25,806 nt of DNA from a virus, in the IMG/VR virus record IMGVR_UViG_3300008218_000043, positions 1 through 25,806 of that record. One strand, written 5' to 3'. The position numbers and the translations under genes are program-made. Position 1 is the first letter of the stretch. The number at the start of each line of letters is the position of its first letter. Below, piece by piece: positions 2,903 through 25,806 of the stretch. The notes beneath the pieces are model-generated. The model was not told the origin of the DNA, ran no database searches, and saw only the letters and a list, made by a program, of their open reading frames with translations.

Positions 2903-2949
2903 TTTGTTCGTTTTGTGTTTTGGTTATATGGGGCTGTATGATAAAGGTC

Positions 2950-2976
2950 AACCCTTTGGTCAGGGTTTCCTTTTTT
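2950..2976 (+). terminator. Rho-independent terminator 1
   Basis: Stem AACCCT (2950-2955) and AGGGTT (2962-2967) with a six-base loop, followed by TCC and six T (2971-2976). It lies 47 bases after the phosphoesterase stop and ends the plus-strand run. Confidence 0.75.
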
Positions 2977-2977
2977 G

Positions 2978-3011
2978 CCCCGCGTCAGTCTTGTATTGGC
3001 GCGGGGTTTTT
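2978..3011 (+). terminator. Rho-independent terminator 2
   Basis: A perfect seven-base stem CCCCGCG (2978-2984) and CGCGGGG (3000-3006), with a 15-base loop and TTTTT (3007-3011). It directly follows terminator 1, so plus-strand transcription is stopped twice before the convergent minus-strand block that ends at 3016. Confidence 0.85.
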
Positions 3012-3015
3012 AATA

Positions 3016-4819: not shown

Positions 4820-4926
4820 AATTCGCCTAACCTGTCCATAAGTATAACGAAAGCCCTAGCAGCAGTTGCAGGGACAACTCCGTTTCCAAGGGCGCGCAGT
4901 GAATCGATACGTTGATTACGCACCAT
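4816..4926 (-). pseudogene. Duplicated C-terminal fragment of a C5 cytosine methyltransferase
   Basis: A 36-codon open frame, starting MVRNQRIDSLRALGNG and ending MDRLGEL, that is nearly all contained in a 100-bp copy of the 3' end of the degenerate methyltransferase gene at 5455-5778. The RIDSLRALGNGVVPATAA segment matches the last conserved motif of C5 cytosine methyltransferases (RxxxLGNxV). There is no room for a catalytic domain. It lies between the XF1762-like gene and rusA and overlaps both neighbours. It is most likely a duplication scar rather than a working protein, although it could be translated and may help couple rusA translation. Confidence 0.7.
4826..4925 (-). repeat. 100-bp direct repeat, copy A
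   Basis: Identical to 5471-5570 except one base (A at 4858, T at 5503). Start-to-start distance is 645 bp. The repeat encodes the methyltransferase C-terminal motif on the minus strand and brackets the XF1762-like gene. A weaker match extends roughly 18 bases beyond the high-numbered edge. Confidence 0.95.
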
Positions 4927-5458
4927 GTCCTCCATCGTCTCCAAACAACTGGAAACTTTCTTCTTTATACAGTCTTTTGTGTGTAGGTATTTCCTGTAAA
5001 TCAGGTTTACTGCTCAATTCACAGAACCATCTGACTTTCAAATCGTTCTTGCAATCTACATTGCGCCCCTTTCTACTATCCCACCCAGTTCCATCAGTAT
5101 TTATGTTCTGCCATTTCCAGCCCACCGCTTTCAGACTTGACCCAGACTCCCTCTGCAATGTTGTAGTTTGGACAAGGCTATATCCCATACATCTGGCAGA
5201 CTTTGCAATCGCTCCCAACAAAATACTGCACGCATTCTTAGTACCGTCTGTTGCCACTCTCGTTATTTCCAAAATGAACTTTTGGTCCGAGAGTCGCGCA
5301 ATAGGACGACCCGCTATCGCTGCCCCTAATAATTTACCCGTCTCATCAATAACCCCTAAAGAAAAACGATGACCTACCGCCGGTTTATGGTGTCGATGGA
5401 ATCGTTGAACTATAGCATTTGCCTCTTTTAGGTCTAGCGGAATTATTCGCAAACTCAC
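4916..5458 (-). CDS. XF1762-like, GNAT-type protein
   Basis: A 180-residue protein starting with GTG, with AGGAGG six bases upstream. The N-terminal pattern (LRIIPLDLKEANAIVQRFHRHH and KPAVGHRFSLGV) is characteristic of the XF1762 family, phage and bacterial proteins of unknown role with a GNAT-like fold. Next come GAAIAGRPIARL and a conserved ARCMGYSLVQTTT stretch followed by GWKW. The usual family appears to end near KVRWF (about residue 146). The last 35 residues look added, and their DNA shows traces of the methyltransferase sequence (QLFG and HGA* matching QLMG and WCV in another frame). The gene lies exactly between the two copies of a 100-bp repeat, suggesting insertion. Confidence 0.75.
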   Translation of the reverse strand: MSLRIIPLDLKEANAIVQRFHRHHKPAVGHRFSLGVIDETGKLLGAAIAGRPIARLSDQKFILEITRVATDGTKNACSILLGAIAKSARCMGYSLVQTTTLQRESGSSLKAVGWKWQNINTDGTGWDSRKGRNVDCKNDLKVRWFCELSSKPDLQEIPTHKRLYKEESFQLFGDDGGHGA

Positions 5459-6010: not shown

Positions 6011-7147
6011 TCACACGGTAAACAAACTTTGATTATCTTCTATACGCTTCTCTGCAAGTTTAGCATATTCAGGATTCAATTCAATCCCGATGCCGTTCCT
6101 TCCGTGTTTCAGTCCAACAGTAAGCGTTGTTCCCGAACCAAGGAACGGGTCAAGTACAGTACAAGGAATGATATCAGCACCACAAGAGCAACTAGGACTC
6201 CATCCTACAGTCTTTGTGGTTGTAACATGCCTCTCTGTGTCTCTGTTTCCAACAACCTCGCTAGGCAATCCCTCAACCTTAGATGTCAAATTGGGGCGAG
6301 TTGGTTTTCTTTCGCTCTCAACATCTCTCGCCCAAGGTGAACCGCATATTTGACAACAACCTTTTTCTGAAGTACCTGCAAGAACACATGGTTCAATTAG
6401 GTCTGGTGGGAATGTTGCGAAATGTGCGCCCCTGAAGGGTTTTGGGCATACGCTCCAAACAGAGCGTTTGTTCCTTTTTTCTGGTGTTACATAGTTTTTG
6501 TGTGGTCTTGTAACCAATCCTTGTTTTACATATTCATCGGCTTTATTGCCTTTTTTATGAACATGAATACTGCCTTCTGTCTTACTATCTTCTTTTATCG
6601 CTTCATTATCAAAATAATACTTCTTGGATTTACTCAATAGGAAAATATATTCATGTGCTTTGGTACATCTATCGGTTACTGATTCGGGCATCGGGTTTGG
6701 CTTGTGCCAGATGATGTCTTGTCTGAGATACCAACCATCGGCTTGCAATGCGAACGCCACGCGCCAAGGGATTCCAACCAAGTCTTTTTGTTTAAGGTTT
6801 TTTGGTTTCGCTTTTGGTGGTATTTTGGTTGCTTCTCGGCTGGGTCTGTTTTTGTTGAACTCTGGGTTGCCTTGCGTCTTTGTGCCACCGCTACTTCCTC
6901 CCGCATAAGAATCGCCGAGGTTCAGCCAAAGCGTTCCATCGTCACGCAAAACCCTACGGACTTCCCTGAACACTTGAACCATGTTCTCGACATACGCATC
7001 TGGCGTTTCTTCAAGACCGAGTTGGTCATCTTCGCCGTAATCACGCAAGCCCCAATATGGCGGGGAAGTAACGCAACAATGGACACTGCCAGATGGTAGT
7101 TCTTTAAGTTTGTCTATGCAATTTCCTACGATGATTTTCGGTTTCAT
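6011..7147 (-). CDS. Beta-class DNA methyltransferase (N4-cytosine or N6-adenine)
   Basis: A 378-residue enzyme. The catalytic motif IV is TSPPYW (27-32), near the N-terminus, and the AdoMet-binding motif I is DPFLGSGT (333-340), near the C-terminus followed by GIGIELNPEY. Catalytic motif before binding motif defines the beta class; S-P-P-Y is typical of N4-cytosine and also some N6-adenine enzymes. The region between holds the target domain and cysteine pairs (CCQIC and CSCG) that could bind zinc. All key residues are present, unlike the neighbouring cytosine methyltransferase remnant. AGAGGA lies seven bases before the ATG. It presumably protects phage DNA from restriction or marks it; the recognition site is unknown. 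Confidence 0.88.
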   Translation of the reverse strand: MKPKIIVGNCIDKLKELPSGSVHCCVTSPPYWGLRDYGEDDQLGLEETPDAYVENMVQVFREVRRVLRDDGTLWLNLGDSYAGGSSGGTKTQGNPEFNKNRPSREATKIPPKAKPKNLKQKDLVGIPWRVAFALQADGWYLRQDIIWHKPNPMPESVTDRCTKAHEYIFLLSKSKKYYFDNEAIKEDSKTEGSIHVHKKGNKADEYVKQGLVTRPHKNYVTPEKRNKRSVWSVCPKPFRGAHFATFPPDLIEPCVLAGTSEKGCCQICGSPWARDVESERKPTRPNLTSKVEGLPSEVVGNRDTERHVTTTKTVGWSPSCSCGADIIPCTVLDPFLGSGTTLTVGLKHGRNGIGIELNPEYAKLAEKRIEDNQSLFTV

Positions 7148-16799: not shown

Positions 16800-16828
16800 A
16801 TTATCGTCCAAAGTTACCATAATGACAA
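16800..16828 (-). promoter_or_regulatory. Leftward sigma-70-type promoter
   Basis: On the minus strand, TTGTCA (16823-16828) and GATAAT (16800-16805) are each one base from consensus and are separated by exactly 17 bases. The gene at 16752 starts about 48 bases beyond. GTTACCAT lies in the spacer and GGTAA just upstream, forming a TTACC-N12-GGTAA inverted repeat (16814-16835) that spans the -35 box. Confidence 0.7.
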
Positions 16829-16939: not shown

Positions 16940-17055
16940 CTCGAAGAGACAGGACAGCAACAAGAACGAAGGACCAGCGGCATTCACTCGCGGTTCGACA
17001 CTCATGAAGCAGCAGTACGGTAACTCGAAGAGAAAGGACAGCAACAGGCACGAAG
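16940..17055. repeat. Two 32-base direct repeats
   Basis: CTCGAAGAGACAGGACAGCA (16940 on) through 16971 matches 17024-17055 with three mismatches; copies are 84 bases apart start to start. Purpose unknown: protein-binding iterons or a duplication scar are both possible. Confidence 0.65.
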
Positions 17056-17221
17056 TATCAACAAGATATATCTCCATATGGGTAATGTTCACCCTTGCTA
17101 GGAATCTCCCTTATCGGTGTTTATAGTGGGGTACACCCCCCCCAAGTGCTACGCTCGAATCGCACAATATCACCTCCACATTTTCCAGCCCCATTTCACT
17201 CGTTACCATTATGACACTACC

Positions 17222-17476: not shown

Positions 17477-17565
17477 GAATGTCCGGATTTGGGTAGCGTT
17501 CCTGTATTTTGACTAGGACCATGTTGGTTCTGGTCTTATTGTGTTTTTATATACAGGAGACTATT

Positions 17566-18429
17566 ATGTCCTCACAAATTACTACAGCAGAAGTTGAGCA
17601 ATATCAATCAAATGTATTGGATATCGTTCAACAGCGTGGCAGTCGTTTACGTGGTGCAGTTATGGTTGACAGCGATGTGAACGGTAAACGCAAGTTTACA
17701 GATCAGGTCGGAACAACCGAAGCCATTAAGCGTACTAGCCGTCACGGTGATTCACCATTGGTGAACACACCACACCTCCGCAGAGCATTGACCCTCGTAG
17801 ACTACGAATGGGGCGATTTGATTGACGATGCGGACAAGATTCGACTATTGATTGACCCAGAAAGCGCGTATGCACGAAATGCTGCATGGGCAATGGGTCG
17901 TGCAATGGACGACGAAATTATCTCAGCAGCCCTTGGAACAGCATATACGGGCGTTGATGGTACAACACCCGTTGCGTTGCCGGCGGGTCAAAAGGTCGCA
18001 GCAAACAGCGCGGGTCTAACGATTGCAAAATTGCGTAGCACCAAGGAACTGATGGATGAAAGTGAAGTTTCAGAAGATGAAGAAAAGTTCATCGCGTGCA
18101 GCGCGAAGCAGATTACTGATTTGCTAGAATCGACCGAAGTGACTTCAAGCGATTTTAACAGTGTTAAAGCGTTGGTACAGGGCGAAGTTGATACCTTTAT
18201 GGGTTTCAAATTCATCCGTTCAGAGCGATTAAACACTGATGGAAACGGTGATCGTCAATGTATTGCATGGGCTAAATCAGGGCTGGAGTTGGGTGTTGGC
18301 GCAGACGTGGTAACAGAAATTGCCCCACGTCCCGACAAATCCTTCTCAATGTATGTGTATCTTTCAATGGCTGTTGGTGCTACACGTCTCGAAGAAGAAA
18401 AAATCGTCGAGATTGCAGCAGTAGAATAA
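17566..18429 (+). CDS. Major capsid protein
   Basis: A 287-residue protein; AGGAG lies six bases before the ATG at 17566, so the longer frame from 17509 is not used. The opening (QYQSNVLDIVQQRGSRLRG and DVNGKRKFTDQVG) and the block PLVNTPHLRRALTLVDYEWGDLID, with AMGRAMDDEII later, fit the phage capsid family often called Phage_capsid_2, which has the HK97 fold. Length is within the usual 280-350. It would form the icosahedral shell, guided by a scaffold (here encoded at 3610-4422 on the other strand). First gene of the rightward structural run. Confidence 0.82.
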   Translation: MSSQITTAEVEQYQSNVLDIVQQRGSRLRGAVMVDSDVNGKRKFTDQVGTTEAIKRTSRHGDSPLVNTPHLRRALTLVDYEWGDLIDDADKIRLLIDPESAYARNAAWAMGRAMDDEIISAALGTAYTGVDGTTPVALPAGQKVAANSAGLTIAKLRSTKELMDESEVSEDEEKFIACSAKQITDLLESTEVTSSDFNSVKALVQGEVDTFMGFKFIRSERLNTDGNGDRQCIAWAKSGLELGVGADVVTEIAPRPDKSFSMYVYLSMAVGATRLEEEKIVEIAAVE

Positions 18430-18517: not shown

Positions 18518-19012
18518 ATGGCTACAACCAAATCTAATCTAATTACAAACTCGGATGCAGTACCCTCTGTATTCAACGATGTTGGTCTTTTGGGCGGTCG
18601 CGTCCGAATTGCCATGGACAACTTTGAGGTGGCATCAGCAGACTGGGATTCAGACGGTGATATTATCCGGATGTGCCGCTTGCCAGTCAATGCACGCATT
18701 TTAAGCATCAAACTGTGGTCTGATGACCAAGGCGGAACAGGTACCCTAGACTGTGGTATCTACCCAACCGATTCAGATACAGCGAAGGATGACAATTTCT
18801 ACGCAGAAAATTATGATTCTTCAGGACAAGCCACAGACGGTGCTGAACTTCGTTTTCAAGCAGCAGATGTCGATACACTGGGCGACAAACTTTGGGAAAA
18901 TGCTGGTGATACCAGCAATCCGGGCGGTAGTTACGACATTTGTTTAACTGCCGAAGCTGGATTCTCGGGCGCGTTTACCTGTGCATTCCAAGTCACTTAC
19001 ACTATTGACTAA
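18518..19012 (+). CDS. Probable head decoration/structural protein
   Basis: A 164-residue protein; AAGGAG lies seven bases before the ATG. It is beta-rich and acidic; the segment DSDGDIIRMCRLPVNARILSIKLWSDD and the later GDKLWENAGDTSNPGGSYDICLT are typical of proteins encoded directly after the coat gene in many podoviruses, which are seen as capsid-associated proteins. It has no membrane segment or catalytic motif. Role as a capsid decoration is inferred from position and pattern. Confidence 0.6.
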   Translation: MATTKSNLITNSDAVPSVFNDVGLLGGRVRIAMDNFEVASADWDSDGDIIRMCRLPVNARILSIKLWSDDQGGTGTLDCGIYPTDSDTAKDDNFYAENYDSSGQATDGAELRFQAADVDTLGDKLWENAGDTSNPGGSYDICLTAEAGFSGAFTCAFQVTYTID

Positions 19013-19026
19013 ACACTTTCTGTAAG

Positions 19027-19077
19027 GTGGGATTGGGGGGGCAGGGAGTTTCATTCGCCCTCCCCCCCGCTACCCAC
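19027..19077 (+). other. Very strong hairpin ahead of the tail-tube A gene
   Basis: Seven G (19035-19041) pair with seven C (19062-19068); AGGG (19043-19046) pairs with CCCT (19058-19061), with a bulged C. GTGGG and CCCAC near both edges extend the stem. It lies just 15 bases past the decoration stop. No T-tract follows, so it may slow RNA decay or limit read-through of the abundant capsid message. Confidence 0.6.
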
Positions 19078-19089
19078 AAAGGACAATTT

Positions 19090-19740
19090 ATGACCGCATC
19101 AGCCACAACAGAAATAGATTTGGCAAATATGGCTTTAACGATGTTAGGGCAACAGCCAATCAACGACCTTACCGATAACAACAACCGTGCCAATCTAATG
19201 AATACCCGTCTCGCCGATGTGCGAGATTCTGTTTTAAGGGCGCATAACTGGAACAGTGCAATAAAACGCGCCGCCCTAGCAACACTTTCTGATACTCCAA
19301 CATGGGGGTTTGATAACGCGTTTGCCCTGCCATCAGACTTTGTGAGGCTCGCCGGTCTTGAGGACGAATTAACAAAATACAGGATTGAAGCCGGTAATTC
19401 GGGCGGCGCAAATACCCTGCTCCTGCTTTCAGATGCAACCACCGTAAATATCTTGTATGTGTATCAAATAACCGATGTAAGCAAGATGGACCATTCTTTG
19501 AAACAGGCGATTGCGACAAGGCTTGCATCCGAACTCGCCCTTGCTATAACGGGTGATCCTGCAAAAGAAAATTTCTTAATGCAGAAGTATGAATTGTTGC
19601 TAGGAAAGGCGCAGTTTGAAGATTCGCAGGGACATCATTCACTCGAACATATACATGCAGGCGAGTGGCTTGGTGAAAGACGGGGTAGTGGTGTGTATAG
19701 AGACTTCCCGAAACTTGATTCAAGCGGCGATCCTGTTTAA
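19090..19740 (+). CDS. Tail tubular protein A (T7 gp11-like adaptor)
   Basis: A 216-residue protein. The ATG at 19090 follows AAAGGA by six bases and is preferred to the longer frame from 19027, which lies in the hairpin. TEIDLANMALTMLGQQPI, RDSVLRAHNWNSAIKRA and ALPSDFVRL are the usual ordered pattern of gp11-type adaptors, which bind the portal and begin the tail tube. It ends GDPV with the stop overlapping the next ATG (TAATG), as in related phages. Strong call. Confidence 0.85.
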   Translation: MTASATTEIDLANMALTMLGQQPINDLTDNNNRANLMNTRLADVRDSVLRAHNWNSAIKRAALATLSDTPTWGFDNAFALPSDFVRLAGLEDELTKYRIEAGNSGGANTLLLLSDATTVNILYVYQITDVSKMDHSLKQAIATRLASELALAITGDPAKENFLMQKYELLLGKAQFEDSQGHHSLEHIHAGEWLGERRGSGVYRDFPKLDSSGDPV

Positions 19741-22181
19741 TGACCAAAATAGACCAAATCCAAACAAACTTTACTGCCGGTGAACTATCGCCGAGGCTAT
19801 ATGGGCGGGTGGATATTGGCAAGTATTACAATGGTGTAAGCAAATTGCAAAACTTCCTTATTCAGACTCAGGGCGGCATTGAACGAAGAACAGGAACAAA
19901 ATTTATTGAGTTTATACACGAACCCGATGACGGGGTCGTTACCACAGCGTTACCACGGCTCGTTGAGTTTCAATACAACGTTGAACAGAGTTATGTTCTT
20001 GAATTTGGTGTAGAGAATTCCGATACTACTGTGGATAGTGGATATATTCGTTTTTATAGACTGGATGCAAATGGCAATCCGGGAATACTCCTGCAGACAG
20101 GCAGTACTTTTCCGACAATTTTACAGAGTCTTGATTTTACGGCAGGCGAATTACCAAATTTGAAGTTTACACAAAGTGCCGATGTCCTTTTTGTGTTTAA
20201 TAAGAACAAGCCGATTAAGACACTGAGCAGAACACTTCCGGACGATGGTGATGCGGCATCTTGGGTGTGGGGCGAACATGAAACAGAAGATGGTCCATAC
20301 TTAGACGAGAACGTTACGGATACAACAATAACTCCGAGTGCTATTTCAGGAGACACCGTGGAGTTAGTGGCATCTGACGACACGGTGTTTTCGGCTACTG
20401 ACGTGGGCAGACACATTAGGCTTGGAGACCCTGGTACTGGCTGGAAGTTCCTTGAATTCGCTCCGGGTTCTATTGCTGCTAACCCAGATACTCCAGCCGT
20501 AATAACTGTCGATGGACTAGATTTGTACGATTTTGTGGCTGGCGCGGATGGCAATACGACCGATACTGGTGTAAAAGTAGAGTTCTTTTCCATTACAAGG
20601 GGAGCGGTTGAACTTAACGATACAGTTCATACCGCGAAAAACTTTGTCGTAAGCGGTTCAAATACCAAGTTTGATTTGCACTTTCCTACTACAGGAGCAG
20701 TTGAGCCTTTGGAAAATTTGGCTGCAGGTGTCCATGATGATGGTGATGGGGAGGTTCGCATTGAGCCAAAGACATGGTCTGGATGGGGAATCATTAACAG
20801 CGTTGATGTAGACGACAACAAGGTTACAATAGACTTAAAATCAGATTTCACATCCATATTGCCCACAAAGAATTGGAGGCTAGGTGCTTGGTCCGAAGCT
20901 ACGGGCTACCCACAGAGCGGAACATTTTATCAGGGCAGGTTTTGGGCTGCTAAAACAGAAACCCAGCCACAAACATTGTGGAGTAGCGAAAGTAACACAA
21001 ATACCCTATACAGCCCATCTACAATAGAAGATTCTATTGTGCTTGATTCGTCTGCGATAACTGTAACCCTTGCATCTAGGCAAGTGAATGCGATTACAAG
21101 CATTGTTGGGGATTCGTCCGGACTTCTCATCTTAACCGAAAACGCAGAGTGGATTGGTCGCGCACCGAACAACAAGCCAATTACACCATCAGATTTAAGT
21201 TTTCAGGCACAGAGCCACTATGGAACCCTCGATAATATAAATCCAATTTCTATAGGAACAAGGTATTTGATGTTCCAGAAAGAGGGTTCTGTACTACGTG
21301 AATATGTATTTGATTTAGCGCAAGACAGATTTGTTGCAAACGACATCTCTATACTTTCAGAACACATGACACAAGTGGGTGCCAAAGACATGACCCTTCA
21401 GCAAGGCAGGGCTGGTCGCGTATGGGTTGTCCTTGATGACGGAAACCTGATTTCTCTCATATATGAACGAGAACAAGATATTGTTGGGTGGGAACAGCAC
21501 ACTCTGGGTCAATCGAGTGGCGTAGACCCCACGGTGCTACAAGTAGCAAGAACTACACGAAAGGATACAGATAATATCTGGTTCCTTGTAAAACGCAATC
21601 TGGACGGAACAGATCAATACACAGTCGAAGCACTCTCTAACGAGTTCACGGCAGCAACCGCACAGTCGGACGCATATTATTTAGATTGTGGAATATCAGA
21701 TTCGGAGACCGTTGCTGCGGATACGTGGACAGGACTGTTACACCTAAAAGGCGAGTCTGTTTACGCACTAGCGGATTCCGTGTTTTACGGTCCGTTTACC
21801 GTAGATGCAACAGGAAGCATCACGTTGCCAGTAGATGCAAACAAGGTTTCAATAGGGCTTCTTTATGAATCTTCGTTTGAAACGATGCCCCTTGTGAGTC
21901 AGCAGAACATAAATCAAACAGCACACAAGATTAAGCGGGTGGTTAGGGTAATTATTAACACGCTACGTTCGTTGGGTGGAAGTTTTGGAACCGTAGACAA
22001 GGTGTATCCGATAGAATATCCCGCAGCACTTCAATCACCGCCAGAACTAAACACCCTACCAATAGTGTTTTTAACACCCGACAACTCTGATATATTGGGA
22101 ATATCGAGGTATGAACAGAGCGACGCACATCCATCAACCATACTCTCAGTAACACAGGAGGTTGAAATTGGACAATTTTAA
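19740..22181 (+). CDS. Tail tubular protein B (T7 gp12-like nozzle)
   Basis: An 813-residue protein with N-terminal KIDQIQTNFTAGELSPRLYGRVD and KLQNFLIQTQGGIERRTGTKF, the hallmark opening of gp12-type tail-tube proteins. Large beta-rich repeats follow, with PKTWSGWGIINSV, SSESNTNTLYSP and VVRVIINT near the C-terminus. In this family a hexamer forms the tail nozzle beneath gp11 and carries fibre contacts. It is close to the T7 gp12 length (794). Codon use and neighbours agree with a conserved virion protein. Confidence 0.85.
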   Translation: MTKIDQIQTNFTAGELSPRLYGRVDIGKYYNGVSKLQNFLIQTQGGIERRTGTKFIEFIHEPDDGVVTTALPRLVEFQYNVEQSYVLEFGVENSDTTVDSGYIRFYRLDANGNPGILLQTGSTFPTILQSLDFTAGELPNLKFTQSADVLFVFNKNKPIKTLSRTLPDDGDAASWVWGEHETEDGPYLDENVTDTTITPSAISGDTVELVASDDTVFSATDVGRHIRLGDPGTGWKFLEFAPGSIAANPDTPAVITVDGLDLYDFVAGADGNTTDTGVKVEFFSITRGAVELNDTVHTAKNFVVSGSNTKFDLHFPTTGAVEPLENLAAGVHDDGDGEVRIEPKTWSGWGIINSVDVDDNKVTIDLKSDFTSILPTKNWRLGAWSEATGYPQSGTFYQGRFWAAKTETQPQTLWSSESNTNTLYSPSTIEDSIVLDSSAITVTLASRQVNAITSIVGDSSGLLILTENAEWIGRAPNNKPITPSDLSFQAQSHYGTLDNINPISIGTRYLMFQKEGSVLREYVFDLAQDRFVANDISILSEHMTQVGAKDMTLQQGRAGRVWVVLDDGNLISLIYEREQDIVGWEQHTLGQSSGVDPTVLQVARTTRKDTDNIWFLVKRNLDGTDQYTVEALSNEFTAATAQSDAYYLDCGISDSETVAADTWTGLLHLKGESVYALADSVFYGPFTVDATGSITLPVDANKVSIGLLYESSFETMPLVSQQNINQTAHKIKRVVRVIINTLRSLGGSFGTVDKVYPIEYPAALQSPPELNTLPIVFLTPDNSDILGISRYEQSDAHPSTILSVTQEVEIGQF

Positions 22182-23111: not shown

Positions 23112-25806
23112 ATGGCTAAAATACCAACATTCACAGAAAATGTAGACGCGCAGTTTGGCGGAGGGCTGTTGCCGCAGGGCGCGTTGCAGGTACAGCCGGG
23201 CGGAGAAACTTCGGGCTTCGGTGAAGGGCTTATGGCTCTTGGGCTTCTTGTTCAAAAGGCGCGGACCGCAAAAATCGATAAAAAGATACTAGATAAACGC
23301 GCCGAGGCAAAGGCGTGGATGAACGAGACTGAACTTACGGCAAACAAAAATAACGATGGAACATCGCTAGAAAAGTTTGAGGAAGCACTTGTTGGGTTTA
23401 GAGGGACATATCTTGACGATTTGTCGGGTAGAGCCGAAGTCGACGCAAGGAGAACAATAGATACGCTTGCAAGTACCATGCGAGTAACACTGGGCATTAA
23501 AGATGCGAAAGCGTCCGCCACCGCTTACAAAGCATCACTAAAAACAGAGGAAGAAAGAATAACCGCAGATTTCTCGACCATTATCGCCGCCTCTATATCT
23601 GAGACAGAGTTACAGAACGTCTCAGAACGGCTTGATAATGAACTTGCCGATCTTGAGAAGGCGTATGCGGCGGGCGCGGGCGAAAATAATGGTTCTTATA
23701 TCAATATGGATGCGGCGATGTCTGCGTATCGCGTTTCCGCAAACCGAATACTTACTACTTATGCAAAACAAATGAATGCACAGTCTACACCAGCGTCCCT
23801 TGGCATTGTTGAAGATATGTTGAACGATAAAGAGAAGTTGGGGCTGCTTGGTGCATCAATACCGAATATAGTCAAAGAGTTAAGGAGTGCTAGGGTTAAT
23901 CTGTCGAGTGAATCTATTGGTCTACTGGGACTACAAAAGCAGGCGATTGTAACTGCGGGCAAGGCGGCTACAACCCTAGACGAGTTGGTTGAACTGTCAA
24001 TGGGAATTGGTAATTTTCGTGATGATTTTACTGTAGATGATCAACAGGGTTCCCAGCAAGAACTGGTCAATAATTATGTAAGAACAAACATAGAGGGCAT
24101 ATTAAAAGACCCCAGCATAATTAGAAAAATCGAGGCGGAACCGGTTTTCTTTGGAACTGGAATTGATATTAAATCATCTGTTAATTCTGCCCTAGTAGAT
24201 AGAAATAAAACACTTAAGTCACACAAGGATCGATTATCCGATGGTTTGCTAAGCGCGCAGGGCAAATCAGTTTCTGTTTCTGACATGATGATGCTAACCG
24301 TACTGTCCCTAGACTTCAAAGAGACCACGCTAGAGGGTGATGCCCTTTCAACACAGACTACTAACGAGGTGTATATTGATGTCTTGAAGCCATCGGTTGA
24401 CGCACGTATGAAAAATCCAACAGAACCAAATAACCGCGACTTCCTAAAAAACGTTCTAATCGCCTTTCCTAACCTTAACGGCACTGGCTTTTATGAAGAA
24501 ATAGAAGCCAAACTAAAAGAGTCAGAAAATGATCATGATTTAGGACAAGCGCACTACGAAGACCAAATGAATGCGCTTAGAAAACTTATAGCCAACAATG
24601 GTGACGCAGAGCCACTCAACCCAGAATTACACTCAAACACAAACAAGCAACTGAATTCTGCTGTTGACAAGGATCCGGTCGGCTCTCTAATCACTGGTAT
24701 TGAAATTGCAAAACAGCCAAGCGGGTTTATTCCCGACGTTGTTAGTAATGAGTTAAATTTCAGACTAAACCAAAACGATTTCCGTGGCTTAAATGGCATT
24801 CTACAGGATATTGCAGACGGGAACAAACAGAACGCTTGGCAGGCGGGCGGAATGGGCAAGCGGGTGTTTGCGAATACAGACATGGGCAGAATAGCGTCAC
24901 TGTTTTTGAATTCTAGTGATGATGTTAACAAGGCGACAATCCTGTTCTTTGACGAAAACGAACAGGCGTTCGAGGTGTATAAGACGAACTATGACGAAGT
25001 TGCGGGCGTATTAACATCCACGTTACCACAAACGGCAAGCGGCCAACTGACCGATTCTGCTGAACAAATAAGACTCCTGCTAGCGGGCGTGCTGACAGAT
25101 AATCCGACCAATCAGCCATTGCACCACGACATTGCAGCCGCGCACGCTCCGCAGTTGTCTCTTTTTCTTACAATGGAAATGACGGAGCAGAACGTGTCAA
25201 ATCTCAATGAAGAAAACTTGTTGCCAATATACGCTGAGGCAATAAAAAACTATGGAACGTTTTTAGATAATACGCACTTTAGAATTCCGAAGGTTGGACT
25301 TGTTCCGCACACCGCCGTAAATCTTCTGCAAGAGCATCAGTTCAATGGACTAGTTGCTGATGCGGATAAAGTAAGGATAGAAATGCGGGATGCACGAACA
25401 CACGTTGAGGCGGCACAATCCGGAATGGCTTTTGGCACGATGCCCATACGAAATGTTCCTGTTGAAGTGCCTGACGGGGTAGTGGCAAAAACTATTGCGG
25501 ATGTAGAAGCTCTGATGTCGGGTGTTTCCGTACGAACATACAGGGCATTCGTGGTAGATGCGTCGCAGTTTGAGGGCGAGGGTGAACAACTTGCGTTTCC
25601 TCTTGTTGACGATATAACGGGTAGGGCTACCGGATACGTGGTGTTCGGATTCAATGAGGATGGAGACCCGTTTCCAATACGAAGTTTGGGCGTAACAATT
25701 CCGGGGCTAGTATCATCAGCATCACAGCCACTTGTTCCAAATATCGTAAAAGGTCAACTGCCATTGCAAGTTCCCGAATTTGGCACTAAAGAAGATTTAA
25801 TACCGG
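23112..25806 (+). CDS. Large internal virion protein, N-terminal part
   Basis: The ATG at 23112 (MAKIPTFTENVDAQFGGGLL...) opens a frame that stays open for 898 codons to the end of the window, so the gene is incomplete. The translation is rich in helix-forming alanine, lysine and glutamate, as in T7 gp15/gp16-like proteins, with no lysozyme motif in the part seen. No strong ribosome site precedes it, so coupling to the preceding gene is likely. It is expected to be ejected into the host at infection. The full length and any enzymatic domain lie outside the window. Confidence 0.6.
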   Translation, partial: MAKIPTFTENVDAQFGGGLLPQGALQVQPGGETSGFGEGLMALGLLVQKARTAKIDKKILDKRAEAKAWMNETELTANKNNDGTSLEKFEEALVGFRGTYLDDLSGRAEVDARRTIDTLASTMRVTLGIKDAKASATAYKASLKTEEERITADFSTIIAASISETELQNVSERLDNELADLEKAYAAGAGENNGSYINMDAAMSAYRVSANRILTTYAKQMNAQSTPASLGIVEDMLNDKEKLGLLGASIPNIVKELRSARVNLSSESIGLLGLQKQAIVTAGKAATTLDELVELSMGIGNFRDDFTVDDQQGSQQELVNNYVRTNIEGILKDPSIIRKIEAEPVFFGTGIDIKSSVNSALVDRNKTLKSHKDRLSDGLLSAQGKSVSVSDMMMLTVLSLDFKETTLEGDALSTQTTNEVYIDVLKPSVDARMKNPTEPNNRDFLKNVLIAFPNLNGTGFYEEIEAKLKESENDHDLGQAHYEDQMNALRKLIANNGDAEPLNPELHSNTNKQLNSAVDKDPVGSLITGIEIAKQPSGFIPDVVSNELNFRLNQNDFRGLNGILQDIADGNKQNAWQAGGMGKRVFANTDMGRIASLFLNSSDDVNKATILFFDENEQAFEVYKTNYDEVAGVLTSTLPQTASGQLTDSAEQIRLLLAGVLTDNPTNQPLHHDIAAAHAPQLSLFLTMEMTEQNVSNLNEENLLPIYAEAIKNYGTFLDNTHFRIPKVGLVPHTAVNLLQEHQFNGLVADADKVRIEMRDARTHVEAAQSGMAFGTMPIRNVPVEVPDGVVAKTIADVEALMSGVSVRTYRAFVVDASQFEGEGEQLAFPLVDDITGRATGYVVFGFNEDGDPFPIRSLGVTIPGLVSSASQPLVPNIVKGQLPLQVPEFGTKEDLIP

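Follow-up and report, generated by a model that had tools for sequence, protein, structure and literature searches.

A stable hairpin without a T tract between the capsid and tail genes of a virus record, and its counterparts in related phages

The window analyzed here (all 25,806 nucleotides of IMG/VR virus record IMGVR_UViG_3300008218_000043, a marine phage) carries, in the short gap between its capsid genes and its tail genes, a very stable hairpin on the plus strand, and in most of the relatives examined the same slot is conserved with changed sequence. With a probability of roughly 0.57, this hairpin is in our view the local form of a conserved element that marks the capsid/tail boundary on the late mRNA. 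Its position, structure, conservation with compensating changes and orientation on the mRNA strand, together with T-tailed counterparts in some relatives, can be read from the sequences; judging from these, the hairpin probably steps expression down between the capsid and the tail genes. The kind of element is already known. What is new is a position like that of the Tphi terminator of phage T7 without the T tract that defines a terminator.

A phage particle contains hundreds of capsid and decoration subunits as opposed to about a dozen tail-tube A subunits. Control of the capsid:tail ratio in phages of ocean bacteria that use the host RNA polymerase is not described in the literature searched. 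The boundary hairpin is simple and open to testing, the phage family includes cultured members, and its one fixed slot offers a natural series from T-tailed to T-less hairpins.

The hairpin and its genes in the window

The features referred to below are as follows.

17566..18429, plus strand: gene of the major capsid protein, which opens the late cluster of the window (phrog_3437 major head protein, 2.2e-88)
18518..19012, plus strand: decoration/cement-like capsid protein gene (phrog_486 virion structural protein, 6.3e-5; predicted model with pLDDT 70.3)
19027..19077, plus strand: hairpin with a 5-pair outer stem, 7 G:C pairs, a bulged C, 4 pairs and an 11-nt loop; T tract absent
19035..19041, plus strand: G7 arm of the hairpin, from the sequence
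19062..19068, plus strand: C7 arm of the hairpin, from the sequence
19078..19083, plus strand: AAAGGA, a Shine-Dalgarno-like site of tail-tube A; directly abuts the hairpin foot and is partly paired in the predicted ensemble
19090..19740, plus strand: tail-tube A gene (phrog_394 tail protein, 6.9e-44, match from residue 6 of this reading)
19740..22181, plus strand: tail-tube B gene (phrog_376 tail protein, 5.3e-147)
2943..3012, plus strand: tandem pair of terminator-like hairpins with T tails (T6 and T5), past the last plus-strand gene of the late cluster, from sequence and folds

The 5' side of the hairpin reads GTGGG (19027-19031), att, GGGGGGG (19035-19041), c and AGGG (19043-19046), followed by the 11-nt loop, and the 3' side reads CCCT (19058-19061), CCCCCCC (19062-19068), gcta and CCCAC (19073-19077), for a total of 16 Watson-Crick pairs, or 19 pairs in the RNAfold model. 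A sequence-only reading of this DNA had placed the hairpin at exactly these coordinates and described it as free of a T tract, which agrees with our finding of zero T in the 8 nt 3' of the stem on the plus strand (AAAGGACA). The eleven pairs that it counted are the 7 + 4 inner ones, and the 5-pair outer stem, which lies inside its own coordinates, was left out. When read on the minus strand, the hairpin is likewise not followed by a T tract (CTTACAGAAA). Of the two parts of a bacterial intrinsic terminator, the site has the G+C-rich hairpin and lacks the T-rich tail.

At -31.8 kcal/mol, the hairpin is the top single hairpin of the 25.8-kb window, the runner-up on the plus strand being at -25.7; on the minus strand the same site gives -31.0 kcal/mol and the next site -25.8. 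Its description as far stronger than any other hairpin therefore holds for single hairpins, but the margin is narrower when 60-nt windows are folded (-33.2 versus -30.2 and -28.2). Shuffling its own 77 nt gives a z-score of -2.76 (1 of 200 shuffles as low), a modest value because the G and C runs themselves favor pairing. Two other metagenome contigs, represented by four loci, are in agreement with the window across 105 nt including the hairpin, which rules out a sequencing slip in the G7 and C7 runs. One of these two contigs has C changed to T at 19075, where G-U pairing is possible and the predicted outer stem shifts. A search of the window with the covariance models of Rfam 15 gave 0 matches at the gathering score, and a tRNA search found none.

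The gap between the decoration stop and tail-tube A is 77 nt long, and a longer frame of tail-tube A with a GTG start at 19027 begins within the hairpin. The tail-tube A stop codon ends on the base where the ATG of tail-tube B begins. The sequence-only reading had taken the gene at 18518..19012 for a decoration gene, a premise for which there is modest support. Its profile match is weak (6.3e-5) and the model of its product (pLDDT 70.3, 16 alignment rows) finds as its best PDB matches the capsid entries 7eel_H (phage Pam1) and 8h89_J (phage GP4), with the cement protein 7dou_4 of KHP40 at rank 20 and, for the most part, jelly-roll shells of unrelated viruses among the remaining matches. We consider with moderate confidence that the predicted product fits a shell protein. 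The placement of the hairpin, with the capsid-decoration pair ending before it and tail-tube A starting shortly after it, was borne out.

A portal-family match (phrog_332) lies at 44-859, at the very start of the window; from this match and the gene layout, the late cluster probably ends around 2902, facing genes of the minus strand. The tandem T-tailed hairpins at 2943-3012 sit between this end and the facing genes. The record is probably incomplete, since it has 25.8 kb compared with 32-41 kb for 15 related records.

The capsid/tail slot in related phages

Related loci were gathered with the decoration, tail-tube A and capsid proteins, a tail-tube A alignment and named phage records, two of these searches contributing the best 80 of a larger number of matches. 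They gave 185 sequences (the window, L001, plus 184 loci), which partly overlap at this stage (the same contig may appear twice); 169 had a tail-tube A match and 100 nt upstream of it, and an 80% likeness filter left 75 loci, many of them related to one another and not independent. In these 75 loci, the 100 nt upstream of tail-tube A had a median fold z-score of -3.13, with 51 below -2, 42 below -3 and 33 failing to reach the latter value; in 31 of them, none of 200 shuffles was as low. The controls gave z < -3 in 8 of 61 loci upstream of the capsid gene (median -1.22) and in 1 of 43 upstream of the decoration gene (median -0.85). The eight capsid-upstream loci may represent a second, weaker hairpin slot. 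In the window itself, a hairpin with a T-rich tail lies at 17511-17535, just upstream of the capsid start. The site before tail-tube A was the strongest 50-nt plus-strand window of the locus in 40 of 75 cases and among the top three in 54.

In 67 of the 75 loci, a single hairpin reaching -14 kcal/mol or lower was found before tail-tube A, its foot at a median of 15 nt from the tail-tube A start. Some of these picks are doubtful because the picker of the best hairpin at times took a larger or coding-region structure (e.g., L105, L113, L035, L172, L101, L112, L114, and L127), so that the stem lengths and T counts of the 67 are approximate: a run of at least four T after the last G:C pair in 10, at most two T in 39, and core stems of at most 10 pairs in 34. 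The visible T5 of Bordetella phage BPP-1 was scored as T-poor in this count. In 60 of 67 hairpins, G outnumbers C in the 5' arm. C-TNCG-G loops occur in 9 of the 75 upstream stretches versus 0 of the 75 reverse complements; UNCG loops are known to stabilize RNA. Close to the window, L005 (decoration protein 70% identical to that of the window) has the hairpin GTGATTGTGGGGGTGGGC-TTCG-GCTCATCCCCCATGATTAC, and L007 (68%) keeps that shape around a TACG loop. In L034 (48%) and L016 (40%), which are more distant, the hairpins have different outer stems.

Covariation was assessed in two gap-free groups, A5 and A4, both outside the window's own clade. In A5 (8 sequences), 94.2% of cells are paired, 14 cells changed on both sides, and the covariation score is 0.390 versus 0.162 in shuffles, reached by 0 of 500. 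Two of the five measures did not exceed the shuffles in A5, namely the pairs changed on both sides (5, matched by 75 of 500) and the pair types (10, matched by 152 of 500). In A4 (5 distinct sequences), 96.9% of cells are paired, both sides have changed in 5 pairs (matched by 2 of 500 shuffles), and the score of 0.469 versus 0.238 was reached by 0 of 500 shuffles.

Among the named genomes, a hairpin between the capsid gene or genes and tail-tube A was found in 16 of 19: ten pelagiphages, Vibrio phages 1.182, 1.254, and CKB-S2, Alteromonas phage ZP6, Yersinia phage YeP5 (in which gene roles were assigned from the capsid match and gene order), and Bordetella phage BPP-1. Escherichia coli phage vB_EcoM_APEC and the spring phage MW202898 have no hairpin in the capsid/tail slot, and in MW202742, the third genome outside the 16, the slot is not clear. 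At least five T follow the stem in 7 of the 16 (HTVC010P, HTVC034P, Vibrio phages 1.182, 1.254, and CKB-S2, YeP5, and BPP-1, the last with its hairpin before bbp14), the runs being T5-T8 where that of the window is missing; ZP6 has four T, and the other 8 have at most three. BPP-1 has another hairpin, which is T-less, after bbp17, presumably its capsid gene.

In all ten pelagiphages, the hairpin directly follows the decoration gene or, in three of them (HTVC024P, HTVC100P, and Greip, where a decoration gene is not annotated), the capsid gene. Nine have a small ORF of 201-225 nt between the hairpin and tail-tube A (Baldr has none), so that their hairpin lies beside the capsid genes, about 200 nt from tail-tube A. 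The annotated small ORF of HTVC010P starts within the hairpin. In five pelagiphage loci (L094, L098, L099, L103, and L104; L093 by likeness), the ATG of the small ORF comes about 3-5 bases past the hairpin, too close for a ribosome site to fit in between, as though the transcript had been cut or had begun at this point.

Possible modes of action

If the window hairpin is such a boundary element, transcription would run from the capsid gene through the decoration gene into the tail genes, and the hairpin would mark the end of a capsid-decoration segment giving more product than the tail segment. That T-tailed and T-less hairpins occupy one fixed slot suggests one shared job, namely more capsid-decoration than tail product. 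The sequence-only reading had already proposed that the hairpin could set an expression ratio; the presence of a hairpin in this slot across much of the family, and of a T-tailed terminator there in T7 and some relatives, speaks for this idea. Judging from protein roles, the window hairpin would separate the high-output from the low-output genes of the operon.

The closest precedent by position is Tphi. In T7 (capsid gene end at 24162, Tphi at 24210, and gene 11 start at 24228), a stable hairpin likewise lies in a short gap (65 nt in T7 and 77 nt in the window) before the ribosome site of tail-tube A. According to one account, genes 11 and 12 of T7 are expressed only via readthrough of Tphi (PMC5592923). 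Tphi differs from the window hairpin in having six T after the stem, and the window has a decoration gene between the capsid gene and the hairpin, unlike the gene 10/gene 11 arrangement of T7. Moreover, T7 has its own RNA polymerase, whereas none was found in the window record or the 15 related records: a search with PF00940 (T7-type RNA polymerase) gave no match in these 16 family records, which include fragments and the probably incomplete window record. The same search finds T7's own polymerase at 9.9e-110, and the control genomes in the 16-record run gave no match.

A second precedent, this time without T, is the puf operon of Rhodobacter, whose intercistronic hairpin was reportedly the subject of a deletion study in 1987. 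As in the window, a stable T-less hairpin is located there in the gap between two genes of one cluster. The protein ratio of this operon is set by segmental mRNA stability, as stated in the accessible part of PMC8625941, with further background in that of PMC6238624. The puf genes and their hosts are unrelated to those of the window. By analogy with puf, we tentatively suggest that the hairpins of the window and other T-less members may work chiefly by blocking 3'-to-5' exonucleases and so protecting the capsid mRNA, and not as intrinsic terminators. In E. coli, Rho-made 3' ends are typically processed by 3'-to-5' exonucleases (PMC7815308, accessible part), and after such trimming the capsid mRNA could be left with a T-less hairpin as its mature 3' end. 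For the T-free hairpin of the window we favor this route, ranking it above termination or pausing without T, and the latter above damping of tail-tube A.

Termination or pausing would mean that the host RNA polymerase stops at the hairpin in part of its passages and otherwise reads into the tail genes, as at Tphi. T7 does have a T-tailed hairpin in the slot, as do Vibrio phages 1.182, 1.254, and CKB-S2, YeP5, BPP-1, HTVC010P, and HTVC034P, and in relatives with such T runs termination may be the main role. For the window we consider it unlikely, in view of the T-free 8 nt after the stem, of the T runs that the window's own hairpins past the late cluster do carry, and of the only 10 of 67 hairpins with a run of at least four T; an intrinsic terminator in the window was rejected on the absent T tract and the T-tailed hairpins at 2943-3012. 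It is rather doubtful that the hairpin is primarily a translational element, with the stem lowering initiation at the tail-tube A Shine-Dalgarno site and tail-tube B following by coupling through the stop-start overlap. Such a role is compatible with the stem ending directly before AAAGGA, which is partly paired in the prediction, and also with the median of 15 nt between stem and tail-tube A start; of the 57 loci (out of 75) that have a Shine-Dalgarno-like site, 34 give it an unpaired probability below 0.5, a count taken without shuffled control. The nine pelagiphages in which about 200 nt separate tail-tube A from a hairpin kept beside the capsid genes argue against it. In the window, the mean unpaired probability of the site is 0.71 or 0.54, depending on the stretch folded. 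The best predicted fold in L002, L007, L014, and L034 pairs the site with a segment 5' of the stem, and a pyrimidine-rich segment that can pair in this manner lies 5' of the hairpin in these four loci and in the window (19013-19090).

RNA processing, which the sequence-only reading had also named, was considered here as a site at which RNase III would part capsid from tail mRNA. With its 16-19 pairs, the window stem is long enough to invite this explanation, and RNase sites are present between other late genes in T7 (PMC5592923). As a family-wide rule it is not supported, given the core stems of at most 10 pairs in about half of the strong hairpins, and we regard it as improbable. Least probable by far is that the hairpin arose by chance or works at the DNA level (a cruciform or protein site) with no RNA function: the G and C runs alone give much of the window's stability, but the conservation, covariation, and strand bias across relatives and the agreement of metagenome contigs at the hairpin argue against it, and a DNA element in particular is disfavored by the strand-specific loops and arms.

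Among the published phages, Pelagibacter phage Skadi-3 resembles the window in having a T-less hairpin directly after a decoration-like gene. For Skadi-1, a viral RNA polymerase and an identifiable terminator were both reported absent, and the accessible main text does not contain the word "hairpin" (PMC10504331); programs that find T-tailed terminators would miss T-less hairpins. The element was unreported among the matches listed in a search on terminators and hairpins of pelagiphages and phage capsid genes, most subscription papers being outside its scope, and transcript data were not found in the literature searched on this phage group. The word "terminator" is absent from the accessible part of a transcriptome paper on HTVC019P- and HTVC023P-type pelagiphages (PMC12753301), and the accessible parts of PMC10319736 and PMC9004378 have no bearing on the capsid/tail hairpin site.

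A constant loop in one group of relatives, and other observations

In one group of relatives, the loop is TTGAAT or TTGATT on varying stems; the loop of the window hairpin does not have this motif. TTGA(A/T)(A/T)T occurs in 16 of the 75 upstream stretches versus 3 for its reverse complement. Hairpins of at least 9 pairs with such a loop, counted in 1.18 Mb of partly overlapping and unfiltered sequence, number 29 at the site, 6 elsewhere on the plus strand (one of them the Baldr site re-read from its whole-genome locus), and 13 on the minus strand. A protein-blind pattern of one TTGAWT hairpin, a single type derived from members at the capsid/tail site and different from that of the window, was found in 72 contigs of a viral collection and 1 of a genome collection. 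Each of the 73 hairpins has a decoration stop no more than 80 nt upstream (records being oriented by the hairpin), and 71 are 19-24 nt before tail-tube A; in the remaining 2, a tail-tube A match is absent and the record ends within about 60 nt of the hairpin. These 73 records are not independent events because many are close relatives. The genome-collection contig, L192 (NHDJ01000148.1), is titled as a Verrucomicrobia MAG and carries the capsid, decoration, hairpin, and tail-tube A of the phage family; it is probably a phage contig binned with the MAG, and a host origin of the TTGAWT hairpin was rejected on the phage genes of this sole contig.

A protein of the phage or the host may recognize the loop, as its constancy on freely changing stems suggests, and such a protein would protect the capsid mRNA or halt the polymerase at the hairpin. 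That a widespread, phage-specific class of T-less hairpins sets the capsid:tail ratio post-transcriptionally with a specific reader is nevertheless a speculative view to which we give little weight.

Other features of the window concern the region upstream of the capsid gene, where two copies of a 32-nt direct repeat, ctcgaagagamaggacagcaacargmacgaag (16940-16971 and 17024-17055), are intergenic, as are a C8 run at 17136 and TTACCATWATGACA, which occurs both at 16814 and at 17203. These elements are possibly control sites of two divergent clusters. On the minus strand, the window encodes a Mom-like DNA modification protein (4916-5458; phrog_1384, 4.4e-28) and a DNA methyltransferase (6011-7147; phrog_67, 3.8e-78).
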